From positions 3,911,040-3,975,039 of the forward strand of contig SMSO01000035.1 of NCBI GenBank assembly GCA_004764695.1: a stretch of DNA of 64,000 bases, written 5' to 3'. The DNA is from Schizochytrium sp. TIO01. Its lineage: Eukaryota; Sar; Bigyra; Thraustochytrida; Thraustochytriidae. A program made the translations under genes and the position numbers. Numbering within the stretch: the first letter of the stretch is position 1; every line of letters begins with the position of its first letter. The notes beneath the pieces were generated by a model. It had not been told where the DNA came from. It saw only the letters and a list, made by a program, of their open reading frames with translations, and ran no database searches. Shown one piece after another: positions 13,824 through 23,308 of the stretch.

Positions 13824-14000
13824 TTGTTTGTTTGCTTGTTTGTTTGTTTGTTTGTTTGTTTGTTTGTTTGTTTGTTTGTTTGTTTGTTTGTTTGTTTGTT
13901 TGTTTGTTTGTTTGTTTGTTTGTTTGTTTGTTTGTTTGTTTGTTTGTTTGTTTGTTTGTTTGTTTGTTTGTTTGTTTGTTTGTTTGTTTATTTATTTGTT
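13824..14000. repeat. (TTTG)n tetranucleotide array, about 41 copies
   Basis: An almost perfect TTTG array with one TTGC variant near the left end and TTTA variants at the right end. It yields artificial Leu-Phe-Val-Cys frames. It lies about 220 nt upstream of the start of the WW-domain gene. Confidence 0.97.
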
Positions 14001-14220: not shown

Positions 14221-17200
14221 ATGGCTGGCCAAGAGGGAGCCTGGGTGCGGCGCCGTGACCCGCGCTCTGGGCGATTCTTTTACTTTGATCTAGACTCGCA
14301 AGAGGTAAGTCTGAAGATGCTGTGCTCGCCACCGCCGACAGTGACGACGAAGTCGGCACGGAGGCCTGGCTCAACACCTAGGAATCGCGCGTGAACATCG
14401 TGAAATTTACAAGCACGTGGGTTAGCATATATATATATACATTCACCTGTGGTCTATTTATATTTTGTGCAGTTGACAGCATGATTTTCACCATGTTACA
14501 AGCACTTGCGCAGTGTCAAAGTCTCCACATCATCCTCAAAATCAGTAGCATGAAGGTGATTCTGTAGACTCTAAGGATTTACAATATTCTAATTCGCTCG
14601 AGAAGCAGTGTAGAGCGCTGCAATTGTACAATAGTGGGGTGGGGTGGGTGGAGACATGGTTTGCAATTAGGTTGCGCGGCGAAGTAACGGAGGGACATTG
14701 TTGAGACTGACGCAAAACTATGTTTTGGTTAATGCTATAATTTGCGGTCGCTGCTGACATGTATTCTGCTGACGATAATGATGATCTATACACCTTCTTA
14801 CCATTGGCAATTGACTCACACTGGCGACAGTCTACGTATAATGTACCCAAAAAAGTTCTCCATGGAGATTGGGAGGTAGGTTCAGGATATGGAGGTTTCA
14901 TTGGAGGTGAGTCTCGTCGAGAACTTAAAGAAGGGCCCTAACTGTACACTTGAATCATTTTTGCAATCACAGATCATGAAAGACCCAGGGACGGACCGGA
15001 TCTTTTATTTTCATAAAAAGAATGGCACTTCACAGTGGGAACTGCCCTCAGGGGCCTTTGTTCCCCCTTCAGTGGCTTTCGCAGATAGCCAGGATGAAGA
15101 CGAGCATGATGATGCTATGTCGGTACCCTCTGAAGTTGGTTTTGCTTACGATGGTCCACAAATAGTTCGAAGCCAACAACATCATGTGCAAAAGCATGCA
15201 AATCTTTTAGACCACAGGATGGGAAACCGTGGTCATCATATTCATGAAAATATTAACACAGATGAGACTGGAGCTGACGATGATGAGGATTCCTGGGTAG
15301 AAGTATGGGACGAAGAAACAAACAGGAAATTCTGGCATCATGAGATGACAGGGGAGTCCCGATGGGTTCGTCCAGGTAAACCCGAAAGGCGGCAGTCTAA
15401 TGTGATTGCTGCTAGCGAGCTCAACATTTTGCAGCGCCCTAGACAGTCCTCCATTGGCAGCGTTCTAGATGAAGAAGGGGATTGGCGCATGATGAAAGAT
15501 AATGTTACTGGTCGTGTTTTCTTCTATAATGTAAGCTCGGGACATAGCCAGTGGGAACGCCCAGAAGAGTTTGATGGACCTAATCTTTTGGCTGGAAAAT
15601 TATATACCCCTGCAGAGAAGTGGGAAAAGCTTCACGACCCAGCAACTGGTCGTGTATTCTTTTTTAATCGTGAGGAGGGTATTACTCAATGGGAGCGCCC
15701 GCGAGAGCTCGACTTCTTCCCTCGTGAAGGAAGTCCTCGCATTTCTGTAATTCCTCATGGCTTACATCCAACCGATGATGGAGAGGAGGAACAGGAGGGC
15801 GATTGGGAAGAAATATATGATCCTGACTCGAAAAGGGTCTTCTATTTTAATCGAAGAACCGGGCGTTCGTCTTGGGACCGTCCTTCGCTGAAGGGAAATT
15901 CGCCCAGCGGGCACCATGCACAAGATTCCACTTCACAGTCTCCTGTCACGCCACCTGTGGCAAATGGAAACGGGGAAGAATGGAAGGGTGATACAGAAGA
16001 TGCACCAGCTTCGTCCACTGATGACATCGTTCAAGCCACTTATATTCGTGCTCCTCGAAGGGCATCGGGAGCCCCTGCTAAGTTATCAGATGTCTCTAAA
16101 CGAACAAGGGAAGAGTCTGGCCAGGGCATGAGTACTCTCACTAGTCCTCCTAAGAACCTTGATAAGGCCACAGAGACCGAAAACGACCCTCACATATTTT
16201 CTCCTGCGCCACCCTCATTTGATGATGCAAGTCACAACGAGGCTTTTAATCCTGCCATCTCTTCCAAGCCGGATGTTATAGAGAAGGAGGATGGCACACC
16301 TAATCAATCTCTGGGAGAGGCGGCAGAGAGCAAATCTTCACGTCTTGCGAAAAGAGACACTGAAGAAAGTTTGAACAGTGAAATCCAGGACAAGAAATCA
16401 AACGCTCGCCAGCAAGACCCAGAATCCACTGATTCATTAAATGCGCAAACGGATTGGCGCGAACTTATCGACGAATCAACTGGACGAACATATTTTTTTA
16501 ACCAAGTCACAGGTGAGTCGCAGTGGATTGATCCGCGTAAGGCTACTCTTGTCGATGAAGATTGGTGCCAGCTTGTTGATGCCGAAACACAACGGAAGTA
16601 CTTCTACAATAAGCGCACTGGCGAATCCCGATGGCATTTGGACGAAAAACTTAATGCAGACACAAGTGCTCCTTTGACTGATGATGGCGATCAAGCTGTT
16701 GCAGAGGAGGACCAAACTGAGAATGTAAAACCACAAAGTCATACTTTTGAGAGTTCAGGGCGTCGTCTGGATCGTAGCGAAACAGATCCAGAGACCGAAA
16801 GTGTTCAGAAGGACGCTGGTCGAAGATCAAGCGCAATGCCATCATTGGCAAGTCCAACAGGATCTCAACAGCATAACGAGCAGTCATCTTCCCTCCTCAG
16901 CTTCTTCACCTACCGCCGCCGCATTATCCCCGCAAGATTCCAATGCTGACCCAGCCATATTTGTATCAGCAGACCACCCTGCACAGCGGGAATCGGCTCC
17001 TGGCTCGCCCCCCTCTGCTGAACCGACGCCTAGCCAGGGCAGCTCAAACTCAAGGCGCGCATCGACTTCACCAGGATTCTCGCCTTCGAGTTCATCGAGT
17101 TTGCAAAGCCAAACTGATGGTTTGAATGACCCGCGGTTTCAATCAGAACGCAAGCTTGATCGTGCCGAAACATTCGATCACTCCTCAAAACTCGGTGATG

Positions 17201-20200
17201 AAGGCCAACAAGGTATCAGCGCCCAGCGCCGTACAAGTGCAATGCCCAACCTTGGTGGAGGCTATTTTGGATCGTACGGGGCAGACTCAGATGATCATTC
17301 ATTCCCAGGTGAAGTCAGCATTGAGGGACATGCACAAAAGCTTCGTGAAGTAGACCCTGAAATGTTTACATCCTCTGGAAGACGGTTAGACCGCAGCGAG
17401 ACCTTGGAGGCTAGGTCGTCAGGATATACCTCCGACTCTGGCGAGGTAGGCCCACGCCGCGCAAGTGCAATGCCCACGGCTCCGTTCTACCACCAAGGCG
17501 AGCAAGTCTTAGAGGACTGTCAAGATGCTTCGGAAGAATTTAACTCTTCCACTAGTCTGACGAATGATCAGTTGCGGCAGATAGATGGTGATATGTTTGA
17601 CAAGCAGGGTCGTCGATTGGATCGTAGCGAAACTTTCGACAATACGTCACCGCGAAACCAACAATTAGAAGGTAGTCGTCGCTTGAGTGCAATGCCTCGC
17701 TTGGCGGGCGCCAAAAATTCTTCCTCTGTGCACGATGAAATTCCAGAGGACCAGCGCTCACTACAATCTCAGTCGTCTTTTAGGCAAGGCTCCCTGGAGA
17801 AGGAGCTCCAAAGCGTGGATTTACAAGATCGACGCGATTTTGATCAGAGTATGTTTGATTCTGGGCGACGTCTTGACCGGAGTGAGAGTGCTGATCCTCA
17901 TACACAGCATGGCTCCGAAAGTGTAAATCGTCGAACAAGTGCGATGGCTTCTCTCGCAGGCGGCTATCTGCAGCACGAAGGTGAATTCGCAGATGAGGAT
18001 GCAAGTCGTCAAGGCTCTTCAGAAACAGCCTCTCAGTATAGCATTTACTCGAATGCAGATAGAGTAGCTCATGGCACCACACCCTCTTGTTCAAAGTCAC
18101 AAGATGGAAGTCCTAGCATGGCAGGTTCTATGAAGACTCGACGCGCATCTGCGATGCCAGACCTCAATGTAGGATCAATGCGTTCTGGCTCAATCAGTAG
18201 TGATGGGGACAGCCAAGCCGACTCGAATTCCGAACGTCGTGCTAGCGCGGTTCCAGGCCTTATGGCCAACTATCTAAGTGGATTTCGCAATAATGATAAG
18301 GGTACTTTAAATAATGGTGTTCAAAGTAGTCAGAACGGAGTTTCGACCCAGCAAAGCACTCAGCCATCACGCCGCCGAAGCTCGTTAATGTCATTTTCCC
18401 CTTTTATTGGCAGCATTGCTGAGGCCAGCAATGAGGAGGACGACTATGATGAGGACGATGCTGTAGCTGAGAAGGGATCTATGTCGCCTCCTTCATACCC
18501 TCCTCCACATGGTACTAGCAAGTCACGAGTGTCAACTATTCCTGATGAATTTCGTCCTGAAAATGTGTTCTCCGGAGCTAACTTATTATTTGGTCGTCAC
18601 CCTGCGTCGACCTCGCCAACATCGAAAGATGAAGGACAAGAGCATGAAATTAAGCAAGGTCAGCATGGCCATCTTCCAGGGCCAATTTCTATTCCGTCAG
18701 ATGGACCAAATGCAGACGCCAATGGTTTCCAAATTCCAGCTCTTCGCAGCGCGTCATCCCCACAGCAACATCCTATGCAGCAAAAACTCAATCATAACGA
18801 TGGCAGTGACCCAATGGCAAATGCATCTGTCCGTGCACTTGCGCCTCTGCGTGGGTATTTAGAGAAGCGAGCCCGTCATGGCCGCCAGCAATGGCAAAAA
18901 CGCTACTTTACATTGGATGACCGCAATCTTAGGTATTTTGAATCTGAGCGTCAAGCAACGAACAAATCGCGCGACTCAGGACAGCTGGCTCTCGCGCGTA
19001 TTGATTTGAACAAAGTCAGCCACGTTGAGTCTGAGGATGGCGATGATGGATTTCAATTTGGTGTTTATGGTCGAGGTGCTCTTGGAGTTCTTGTTCTTCT
19101 TCGCTCCGAAACAGCTCACGAACGCGAGCTATGGCTTGCTGCTCTCCGCGCTCGTATTGTTAAAGATCCAACTCCTGCACTTAAGACACAGCACGCACAA
19201 AATGGGGGCGAACAAATTTTTGCGCGTTGCATAGAAACTGTTTCGAGCTCTGAACCAGGTATGCTACGCATTTCACGCGGGGATACAATTCGTGTCCTGC
19301 AGAAATCTGATGGTGATCGTTGGTGGATCGGAGAAGTGAAGGGTCGCATTGGCAATTTCCTCCCTGAAAAAGTTGTACTCATATCTTCTCAAGAGGCAAT
19401 GAATGGCGGCGCGGGATCCGCACAACGCCCGTCTTATGAGTCTTCACCAGAGTTTGGATCGATTTCTTCCCGAATGAGTGCCCGAATGTCATCCACGTCT
19501 GATAACGAGGGTCTCCGGACAGAATTAAACCGTGTGGAGCGTCGAATCGAAGCCCGTCAAAAGAGGGATGACCTGGAAGCACTTTTAAACTCTCTGGGCG
19601 TAGAGCCTATGAAGTCCCCGGAGGAGTACCCTACAGAAAGCTATATCCGGTATATGCAAGAACGTCTCAAAGACCTAAACGTTCGCAACCACAAGTTGTT
19701 GGCCGAGGTACGGAGTTTAGAGTGGAAACTTGATCATCAAGATCCCGGACCTGCTGCCCCGAACGCATATCTTCTTGTTAGCTACAGCAAGCTTCTCACT
19801 TACATGCGTTCTAACCCTCGTCTTCTGGTCCAAGTTGGGGCAAGTCTTGAAAAGCATGAGCAATCTAGTTTTTCAGGTATTGTAGCAGATGCCCTGTTTG
19901 ACGAGTATTCTGTCGACGAACAAGCGTTTGAAGATCTCGTAGAATTGGCGGTTGATATGTTGTGGGACCAAGGGCTCCCTACTTTGGATAATATGCGCCG
20001 TCGGGATGCTAATCTTGATACAGAAGATGAGTTCCTTCCGAGCTTACTCGCATCCTTCGTACGTCGTACTGAACCTCGCCGTTATCTCGACAAGATCCTT
20101 GGATCTATCAAGGAGGATTTTGTAAGCACGCTAACCAACATGGGAGAAACACGAGTCAAGGTGATGGAACTTGCTTGCTTATTCATGGATGTTATCGCAA

Positions 20201-21456
20201 GTGATGCAGGCCTTGATATGATTCCCCAATGTATTTGCAACGTAGGTGCTATGCTTTTTGATATCGGAGGCGTCTCAATCCTTCACAGATTTCTCTTTGA
20301 GACCATCTTTGTACCTCCATTGTTTTGGCCTGGATTTCTTCCTGATAAAGAATCACTTGGAGATCCAGCCCTTTTTCGGCGTATGCGTATGCGCCTAGAC
20401 GGCCTAGTTGAGTTTTTATGTGAGGAGCTTAGCCAAGATCAGTCCGGATCTACACAACCCAGCAATGCACGCCGTTTGCTGACGCGCTTGACATCTAAGC
20501 TGGTCCGCAAGATTGTAGATGGCGCAGGTCCATCTGCTACACATAAGCCGGTTGAGCTCTGCGACCTTGTTGTTGTCTCTTGTGAGGATCTCTATGTCCT
20601 TCAGGCTTCCATCAATCACTGGGCACGTAAATTTCGTGCGCCAGAACCTTTGCTGGAGATCCTTTCTCAAATAGGAGACTCATCCAGTGTAACCCCTGCT
20701 TCTGCGAATGCACAACCTTATTTGGTATTGCGGCTTTCACCAGTTGGGCCTGAAACATCAATGACTGCTGCAACTCCGCTAGAGAAAGAGACTTTGCGTC
20801 TTTTGATTAAGGCACGTAGTAAGATTGATTCGTCACGAGACTCGTGGAACGCTCAACGTGACGGGGAACTTTTGGATCAGCTTGAGTCTAAACTAGAAGG
20901 GGCGAAACAAGCAATGGCTGGTCAACGGCGAATCCAATTTGGGGCAGACGTAGCAGAACGGTATACAAGTAAGTTAGAGCAAGAACGCGAGCACCTTCTC
21001 TATAAACTAGAATCCCGGCGTGCTTTGACCTCTGGAAATACCCGCCCAGGGCTACCAATGCACACAAACAATTACCCAAAATCCTATCGGGCTGCCGGGC
21101 TCGTTCCATCCCTGATGGATCAGTCTTACATTTCAGATGGGAAACAGTCTTCAATACTCTCAATTACAGACGATGATGATGTCCCAGCACGTCCTCTGCG
21201 CCAAGCACCTCCGAGTCATTATTCAAATTTTACACTGGACGAAGTTGATGAAGTTGAAGGCTTTGGGTTTAACAACAACTATGATCTTCAAGAATCTGAA
21301 AAACGTGAAGATGACGATGTTGATGATGAATGGATTACCGACTCGATGTATGGTCATAAGGAGTTTACATCTTCACCAACAAAGAATAGAAATGATTCTC
21401 ACAGCGAACACTTGGGGGACCTTTTGTCAACAGTATTTAGCCCCTTTGATTTATAA
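14221..21456 (+). CDS. multi-WW, PH, SH3 and IQGAP/RasGAP-like signalling scaffold
   Basis: Model: exon 1 14221-14304 (ATG; donor GTAAGT), exon 2 14831-14875 (45 nt; donor GTAGGT), exon 3 14973-21456, all phase 0. The joins complete two WW domains: exon 1 WVRRRDPRSGRFFYFDLDSQE with exon 2 STYNVP (Tyr in place of the second Trp), and exon 2 GDWE with exon 3 IMKD...SQWELP. Six more WW domains follow near 15293, 15479, 15629, 15803, 16453 and 16558. Next come five GRRLDRSET-like and eight RRxSAMP-like motifs (16758-18393), a PH domain (about 18845-19165, LRGYLEKR, WLAALRARI), an SH3 domain (about 19210-19385, DRWWIGEVKGRIGNFLP), a coiled stretch, and a RasGAP-related domain like that of IQGAP (about 19790-20400, MRSNPRLL, FVRRTEPRRYLDKI). 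The frame shifts by one base between about 16862 and 16946. Total is about 2,200 residues. A cortical or small-GTPase signalling role is inferred. Confidence 0.82.
16846..16949 (+). other. apparent +1 frameshift inside the WW/PH/SH3 gene
   Basis: Upstream frame 0 carries the WW array and the first GRRLDRSET...RRSSAMP module, then stops at 16947-16949. Downstream frame 1 is open from about 16747 and carries all later copies of the same module. No GT-AG intron of suitable length lies between. The switch must occur in the Ser/Pro-rich segment after RRSSAMPSLASP. It could be a one-base assembly error, a natural mutation or programmed slippage. Confidence 0.75.
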
Positions 21457-21788: not shown

Positions 21789-23308
21789 TTATCTTCTTGC
21801 AGCACACTTGAATTCAATTGAACTTGATACAAGAAAAGGGGAAATAAGTGGTGTATGCTTCAGAATAGATATTACCCTATTTTCAAGCATAATTCGCTGA
21901 CGGAGATACTTGTGATGTAGAGCCACCCGTTCAGCAGGCCACTCCTGCAATGACGAGGTGAGATCAGTTTTTATGATCAAACTGTTCAAATCTTCGATAC
22001 AAAAGCGGCCAAGAGGAGAGACTGGTAGGCCTTGCTTATGGCATATAGCGCGGAGTGTTTGGAGTTGTTTAGACATTTTTTCTAGCTCTTGGGTTTTAAG
22101 ACGCATTTCTCCGAGAATAATGTTCATATTAAGAAAATTATAGTTTGTTGAAGAAAGGTATAGAGGTGATGTCGTGGATCTTCATTTTGTAAAGATTTTG
22201 GTAGTTAGTGCATATGCTTTATAGTATACGGCCTTATTAAACTTACGCCCAGGCTGTCAAATCTTGCAGGGTGCAATTCTCTGTGATAGCATCCTGAATC
22301 AACCGGAAATCATGTTTATGTACAGCAGAAAAGCATATTGTTTGAAGACTTCTATTTTTGGATAAACCATCCTTCACCCAGGCTACCTGATCCGACGACA
22401 GTCCTAGAAGATCCAGGCAAAGATATGAGATTCGCTGCGTTGTACAAAGCAAATGGCGTAATGCCAACACAGAGTTGTCGCTAACAATATCTGGATTTTC
22501 TTGTAGGCTCAGTGAGCAAAGAGACGAAGTTTGAATACTTGTTGCAGCAAACAAATCCGCACAGTGTTCAGACAAGATTGCACAGCTAGATACACTGAGC
22601 TCTCTAAATACTGATGATGCATTTTTTGCGCTTTCTCGAATGAGTGCGCCGAGACTCGGACCGATGTTTGTGTTACCATCCAATGTTAAACTTTGTAAAG
22701 TCTGATTCATAGCTAACGCTTGACCAAAACGAGGCAATGTATCAGCAGTAAGACCGCAGCTTGTAAGTCTGCGTTTTATGTCCTTGTGTCTTTGCGTTAA
22801 TGGCACCATTCACGTATATAAGGAGACGATATACTCACCTTAAAACCTGAAGCGTCGAGTTAATGCGCAAGGCTTCTGCAACAATAATACCTCCCTGAGA
22901 ACCTAATAAATTGTTTGAAAGACTTTTTAAAGCACGTTGTCAGAGTCACAGGAGCTTGTTCAATATACACGACTATTCTTTCCATGTGAGATCGATCCAC
23001 TTACTCAAGGATTCTTATAGAATTGTTATGCGCAAGTTCGTTTGCAAATTCTGTAACACATGGCCGACACATTGATGCATTAAATAAACTAAACAATACA
23101 GTTTGTGAGCGAAAATTGAAACAATTACAATCTGCATGCACAGATGCGTAGAGCGATCTTACCTGAGTTCAACAATCTGGGCGAACCTGGTTGGATCAAA
23201 ACAGGAAGGCATGCCAGATTCCTGGACTGATTTTCGACAGCAACAACGGACAAACTTGCTGCAGTCAGAAGTCCCTTCATGTTCAGCTTCATCTTTTATA
23301 TTTTCCAT
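21789..23308 (-). CDS. leucine-rich-repeat (ribonuclease-inhibitor type) protein, five exons
   Basis: Exons on the minus strand: 23308-23163, 23088-23005, 22922-22839, 22768-22247 and 22179-21789. Total 1,227 nt, an exact 408-codon frame plus stop. Donors are GTAAGA, GTAAGT, GTGAGT and GTAAGT; introns are 74, 82, 70 and 67 nt; every junction is phase 2. The joined protein reads through LRR units such as RILDLSNNLLGSQGGIIVAE, EALRINSTLQVLRLTSCGLT and QALAMNQTLQSLTLDGN. The spacing of about 28 residues (LxLxxNxLGxxG...AEALxxNxTL) is that of ribonuclease-inhibitor/NLR-type LRRs. The N-terminal 40 residues are Cys-rich; the last ~100 include a helix (EMRLKTQELEKMSKQL) that may form a coiled coil. 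Binding partner is unknown. The ATG at 23308 is the best start, but the frame stays open upstream. Confidence 0.8.

Follow-up and report, generated by a model that had tools for sequence, protein, structure and literature searches.

We analysed a window of 64,000 nucleotides from Schizochytrium sp. TIO01 (G000:C34:3911040-3975039, in a 64-Mb genome of 37 contigs) and found that a WW array, a linker with repeats, a PH domain, an SH3 domain and a C-terminal region predicted to be helical are encoded by one gene, which runs on the plus strand from an ATG at 14221 to the stop codon TAA at 21456. The gene belongs to a real, conserved scaffold family that is misnamed in Hondaea, and its product is, on balance, probably a large multivalent membrane adaptor of thraustochytrid-type protists, made up of the WW domains, the linker, PH, SH3 and the C-terminal helical region. 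Combinations of such modules are known from ARHGAP9/12 and PLEKHA5-7; the order of eight WW, PH and SH3 with this C-terminal domain was not met elsewhere.

Homologues and conservation of the domain order

Homologues were sought by length-limited, word-based protein searches, in which the words were taken from the C-terminal part and about 7,990 candidates were scored each time; only P0001, P0002 and P0003 were found. P0001 (2188 residues) is from another source and is near-identical to the window protein, P0002 (1605 residues) is from a JGI metagenome, and P0003 (2783 residues), the only one of the three to which an organism name is attached, is from Hondaea fermentalgiana and is named "Prp40-like B" by NCBI. 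P0002 has eight WW domains, PH and SH3_2 in one protein, P0003 has seven WW domains, PH and SH3_2, and the order of WW, PH, SH3 and C-terminal region is conserved in both. Because P0002 and P0003 keep this order and P0001 is near-identical, the locus is one conserved gene and not two; separate genes for the WW part and the PH/SH3 part are ruled out by P0001 and P0002, which hold both parts in one protein. A search of the genome with the C-terminal domain of P0002 returned this locus only, and scans of genome contigs and viral contigs with the C-terminal alignment gave 33 and 51 pattern stretches, with no confirmed homologue among them.

The name of P0003 would make the protein a splicing factor of the Prp40 kind, with which the sub-threshold WW_TCERG1 matches are also consistent, and the family shares with PRPF40/Prp40 its WW domains and an intramolecular proline motif as a possible self-ligand. 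However, no FF domain is listed among the Pfam matches of P0001, P0002 and P0003, and PH and SH3 are present, whereas in PRPF40A two WW domains are accompanied by six FF domains (PMC11079029). Membership in Prp40 was ruled out for lack of an FF match, and we regard such a splicing factor as highly improbable. Because its Hondaea member is annotated as a splicing factor, the family goes unrecognised under an incorrect name.

Gene structure and the frame break

Exon 1 (14221..14304) contains the start codon and the first two thirds of WW1 and is followed by a GT donor at 14305. Intron 1 (14305..14830) splits WW1, exon 2 (14831..14875, 45 nucleotides) encodes the end of WW1 and the start of WW2, intron 2 (14876..14972) splits WW2, and exon 3 (14973..21456) extends to the stop codon; all lie on the plus strand, and both introns have GT..AG borders. 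The product joined from exons 1, 2 and 3 starts with MAGQEGAWVRRRDPRSGRFFYFDLDSQE-STYNVPKKVLHGDWE-IMKDPGTDRIFYFHKKNGTSQWELP, and P0002, compared as a protein, starts with MSGAWVERRDPQSGRKFFYDLDSGRSSYELP... in the same layout. Thus, both splices are supported independently of the assembly. In P0001, 14889-14972 of intron 2 is taken as coding, and residues 1-28 of that protein are the translated intron. The P0003 model has a different N-terminus, in which the WW part is entered via ...PTPLQ-VMQDPG, resembling the end of intron 2. It should be noted that a low-complexity stretch rich in glycine, cysteine, histidine and arginine, which resembles translated non-coding sequence, precedes the WW domains of P0003.

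In the assembly, the reading frame of the WW part (14880-16949) is not that of the PH/SH3 part (16729-21456). Read by hand against P0001, the frame breaks at 16890..16893 of the plus strand, and P0001 crosses this junction uninterrupted as NEQSSFSSASSP. The window differs from P0001 at 4 of 666 residues before the break, where the compared residues include 28 of the translated intron, and at 9 of 1520 after it, so nothing suggests that the 3' part is decaying. Two genes are less likely than either an assembly error at the base level or a frameshift allele of very recent origin. Many in-frame pairs would be possible for a spliced intron at the break, yet P0001 needs none, and this candidate was rejected. 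The break could also mean that this strain has a defective gene, from which only a protein of about 701 residues with the eight WW domains is made, but this is unlikely given that P0001 runs through, that the rate of differences is equal on both sides and that the frame stays open for about 1,520 codons downstream. The original prediction had joined both parts into a single gene; P0001 and P0002 bear this out, although the frame break had been missed.

WW, PH and SH3 domains

Pfam found seven WW stretches in the open reading frame (ORF) of exon 3 (E 4.1e-68) and two in the N-terminus joined from exons 1-2-3 (E 1.1e-17). Since one of the two N-terminal domains is already among the seven, the total is eight, two of which are rebuilt across introns (i.e., WW1 across intron 1 and WW2 across intron 2), just as had been claimed from the DNA alone. 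WW1 (14242..14848, composed of 14242-14304 and 14831-14848) corresponds to the second of the two stretches matched in that N-terminus. The exon-3 part of WW2 (14979..15047), WW3 (15288..15374), WW4 (15477..15563), WW5 (15615..15701), WW6 (15798..15884), WW7 (16449..16535) and WW8 (16557..16637) match PF00397, all on the plus strand. Matches to Glyco_hyd_101C were judged spurious, their best stretches falling on WW domains.

The predicted PH and SH3 domains were also confirmed, with Pfam scores above the cut-offs in the window protein and all three homologues. The PH domain (18850..19155, plus strand, PF00169) scored 41.2 bits against a cut-off of 25.1 (E 2.5e-10), and the scores of P0001, P0002 and P0003 were 40.9, 50.4 and 39.2 bits, respectively. 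Its best PH row in the PDB list was PLEKHA6, and it contains the sequence LEKRARHGRQxWQKR, which is identical across P0001, P0002 and P0003 except at x. The SH3 domain (19219..19359, plus strand, SH3_2, PF07653) scored 28.6 bits against a cut-off of 21.8 (E 1.1e-6), with 28.3, 25.1 and 22.0 bits for P0001, P0002 and P0003, respectively.

Linker, proline motif and C-terminal tail

Between the WW array and PH lies a plus-strand linker (approximately 16760..18265) with the repeats R[RK]LDR[SA]E[TS] and RRxSA[MV]P. In P0001, where the linker from WW8 to PH measures 720 residues, six copies of RRxSA[MV]P and five of R[RK]LDR[SA]E[TS] were counted, whereas each of 2000 shuffles had zero copies, and a similar repeat array is found in P0003. 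The proline motif PPSYPPP follows at 18487..18507 (plus strand), and the pattern PP[SD][YH]PPP occurs once in each of the three homologues; in pattern searches, PPxY was present in P0001 alone and PPLP in none of the three. The protein ends in a conserved tail, HLGDLLSTVFSPFDL (21409..21453, plus strand), to which the ends of P0001, P0002 and P0003 are related and which is likely a further binding site.

Nature of the C-terminal region

The conserved C-terminal region (19489..21036, plus strand) is 64% identical to that of P0003 and 43% identical to that of P0002. An IQGAP/RasGAP-like domain had been claimed here, but nothing significant came out of the tests with profiles, PDB sequences and structures, which yielded weak hints only. 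The Pfam profile of RasGAP (PF00616) had no match at E<=10 in P0001, P0002, P0003 or cut-out pieces of the domain, under HMMER filters that discard most matches above about 0.1. The genome-wide search with PF00616 at E<=1 returned three places and that with RasGAP_C (PF03836) two, none of them at this locus, and PF03836 had no match in P0001-P0003. CH and IQ were also without Pfam matches in these three proteins, from which the IQ pattern is absent too, and no RhoGAP is listed among their Pfam matches. FLR-type and arginine-finger-type patterns are absent from the C-terminal domain in all three homologues.

The profile of the C-terminal domain had one irrelevant match in PDB (E 0.85) and nothing significant in Pfam; other faint Pfam matches within parts of the region (PspA_IM30, E 0.32; DUF5375, E 0.11; Histone_HNS, E 0.2) were taken as chance. 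In hhalign comparisons, the probability of this profile was 0.1-0.2 against IQGAP1, IQGAP2 and L014 together, 1.0 against IQGAP1 and IQGAP2, 0.7 against L024 and L025 (two ORFs of this genome described below), 0.2 against L014 and 0.3 against all five. The positive controls of the alignment z-scores were mixed (4.9/4.9 for IQGAP1-L024, 9.0/4.9 for IQGAP1-L014, 2.0/1.6 for IQGAP1-L025 and 0.6/0.3 for L014-L024), so that low z-scores are compatible with relatedness.

Structure prediction of the region was all-helical: the two low-confidence AlphaFold models, with mean predicted local distance difference test (pLDDT) values of 47.5 and 47.1 and predicted template modelling (pTM) scores of 0.29 and 0.33, consist of a long helix, a helical core (19744-20688), a strand and another long helix. 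At a mean pLDDT of 47 the models do not decide the fold. Foldseek returned no match at E<=0.001 for the second model; in its Foldseek and VIA lists no RasGAP row stood out and many rows were helical-repeat proteins.

Two readings of this region have to be weighed. The region has an even chance of being an unrelated helical protein-binding domain (e.g., ARM/HEAT-like or new) that is so far confined to this family, as suggested by the all-helical predictions, the many helical-repeat rows, the lack of significant profile matches in PDB and Pfam, and the finding of the domain in three proteins only by the word-based searches; the RasGAP-side hints, weak as they are, stand against this, and models of such low pLDDT cannot settle it. 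These hints are the weak similarity of the profile to that of a RasGAP-like ORF from this genome, and motifs shared with IQGAP1 in the same order. They would fit a true but diverged IQGAP-type GRD in a membrane-tethered GTPase effector, in which WW, PH and SH3 replace the CH/IQ half of IQGAP. Against the missing RasGAP match, the poor AlphaFold models and the missing FLR and arginine-finger patterns, however, the RasGAP/IQGAP nature of the C-terminal end is doubtful, although it keeps an appreciable chance. If it has a RasGAP fold at all, the region is probably catalytically dead and a GTPase-binding effector like the GRDs of IQGAPs, by analogy with these. Of the lineage-specific GTPase scaffold originally envisaged, the lineage-specific scaffold, as one gene with a conserved order in three proteins, has held up as far as the searches reach, but the IQGAP/RasGAP part is not established. 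In either case the family carries a conserved domain without a Pfam match, and were that domain a GRD, the known range of IQGAP-like architectures would be widened.

Proposed role as a multivalent adaptor

As a membrane adaptor, the protein would be held at phosphoinositide membranes by its PH domain with the conserved LEKRARHGRQxWQKR, while its WW array would bind proline-rich partners with avidity. In PRPF40A, the WW tandem is inhibited, and its selectivity sharpened, by a proline motif within the protein itself (PMC11079029). By analogy, the PP[SD][YH]PPP motif before PH may engage WW domains of its own chain until a competing partner binds. RRxSAMP and GRRLDRSET are candidate targets of arginine-directed (PKA-type) kinases, which might tune this self-inhibition. 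The C-terminal region, as modelled, could serve as a protein-binding platform, possibly for a small GTPase without GTPase-activating protein (GAP) activity.

Several observations weigh against this adaptor. The frame is broken near 16890 in the assembly, and the strain might make the WW part only. By eye, the SH3 domain is without the usual ALYDY start and final tyrosine, and its ligand binding may be altered. In P0002, RRxSAMP occurs once and GRRLDRSET is absent, which means that not every lineage requires the repeats. PPSY, a ligand of the PPxY type, is found in P0001 only, H replacing Y in P0002 and P0003.

An extension of the adaptor is still less certain than the GRD itself. The family could be a labyrinthulomycete-own GTPase-effector scaffold, in which a dead, strongly diverged IQGAP-type domain lies behind eight WW, a phospho-motif linker, PH and SH3, in parallel with animal ARHGAP9/12, the effector replacing RhoGAP and an internal proline gate being added; we consider this rather unlikely. 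The family also provides a case in which to study the wiring of multivalent WW scaffolds beyond animals and fungi.

Comparison with known systems

WW-PLEKHA family proteins have WW before PH and are not known to contain SH3 or a helical region of the scaffold's kind. WW and PH are also combined here, with WW before PH in the Pfam order, but there are eight WW domains in place of two. PLEKHA5/6/7 have a tandem WW that cooperates with PH in localisation, along with C-terminal and coiled-coil parts (PMC8458771). ArhGAP9/12 contain SH3, WW, PH and RhoGAP (PMC1805438) and thus resemble the scaffold in having WW, PH and SH3 in one signalling protein. They differ from it in that they have one or two WW domains, SH3 named first and RhoGAP, of which there is no Pfam match here.

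IQGAPs have a WW domain (PMC3296274, PMC13299636) and are effectors that do not stimulate hydrolysis, and three members of Dictyostelium also lack the CH domain and IQ motifs (PMC3296274). The scaffold may share with this family (including DGAP1, GAPA, IqgC and IqgD of Dictyostelium) a GRD-like helical core with long flanking helices, as far as the models go, but it has no CH, IQ, RasGAP or RasGAP_C match and has PH, SH3 and eight WW instead. None of the comparators considered has eight WW in the order WW-PH-SH3, and literature searches on WW domains and IQGAP in labyrinthulids and thraustochytrids brought up no account of the protein. The original statement that no described family has such a layout was nevertheless too strong, given that ArhGAP9/12 and PLEKHA5-7 combine such parts.

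Other WW, PH and RasGAP ORFs of the genome

When 150 of 219 candidates in the genome were scored, 150 WW matches resulted, and the window ORF, with seven WW, was second to an ORF with ten on C3. The latter (L022, G000:C3:1494500-1500500, minus strand) is about 1500 residues long and combines its ten WW stretches, the most among the candidates scored, with an IQ motif and ankyrin repeats. Two adjacent ORFs on C13 with three and five WW could equal the window ORF if together they form a single gene. At least three more ORFs of the genome match both WW and PH, so this pairing recurs: L019, which also has a sub-threshold SAM, L020, which has ARM repeats, and L021. For L020 and L021, the PF00169 match was below the cut-off in one scan and just above it in another. 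L021 (G000:C31:1553500-1558500, minus strand) combines RhoGEF, FYVE and WW with a weak PH.

A recognisable RasGAP of this genome is found on C32 in L023 (G000:C32:2799000-2807000, minus strand), an ORF of 2099 residues with 13 RCC1 repeat stretches, RasGAP (PF00616, E 3.9e-21) and a sub-threshold RasGAP_C (PF03836). In PDB, IQGAP2 and IQGAP1 were matched by its GRD portion; unlike the scaffold, L023 has RCC1 repeats and no WW, PH or SH3 listed. The related ORFs L024 and L025, which are 37% identical over 157 residues, match RasGAP weakly and only in the second half of each; they perhaps represent a diverged thraustochytrid RasGAP group; L024 alone had no match in PDB at E<=10.

Around the scaffold gene, a near-unbroken GTTT repeat of about 170 bases (13826-13997) lies some 220 bases ahead of the start codon, and a downstream ORF on the minus strand (22243-22809) has, by eye, the look of a leucine-rich repeat.

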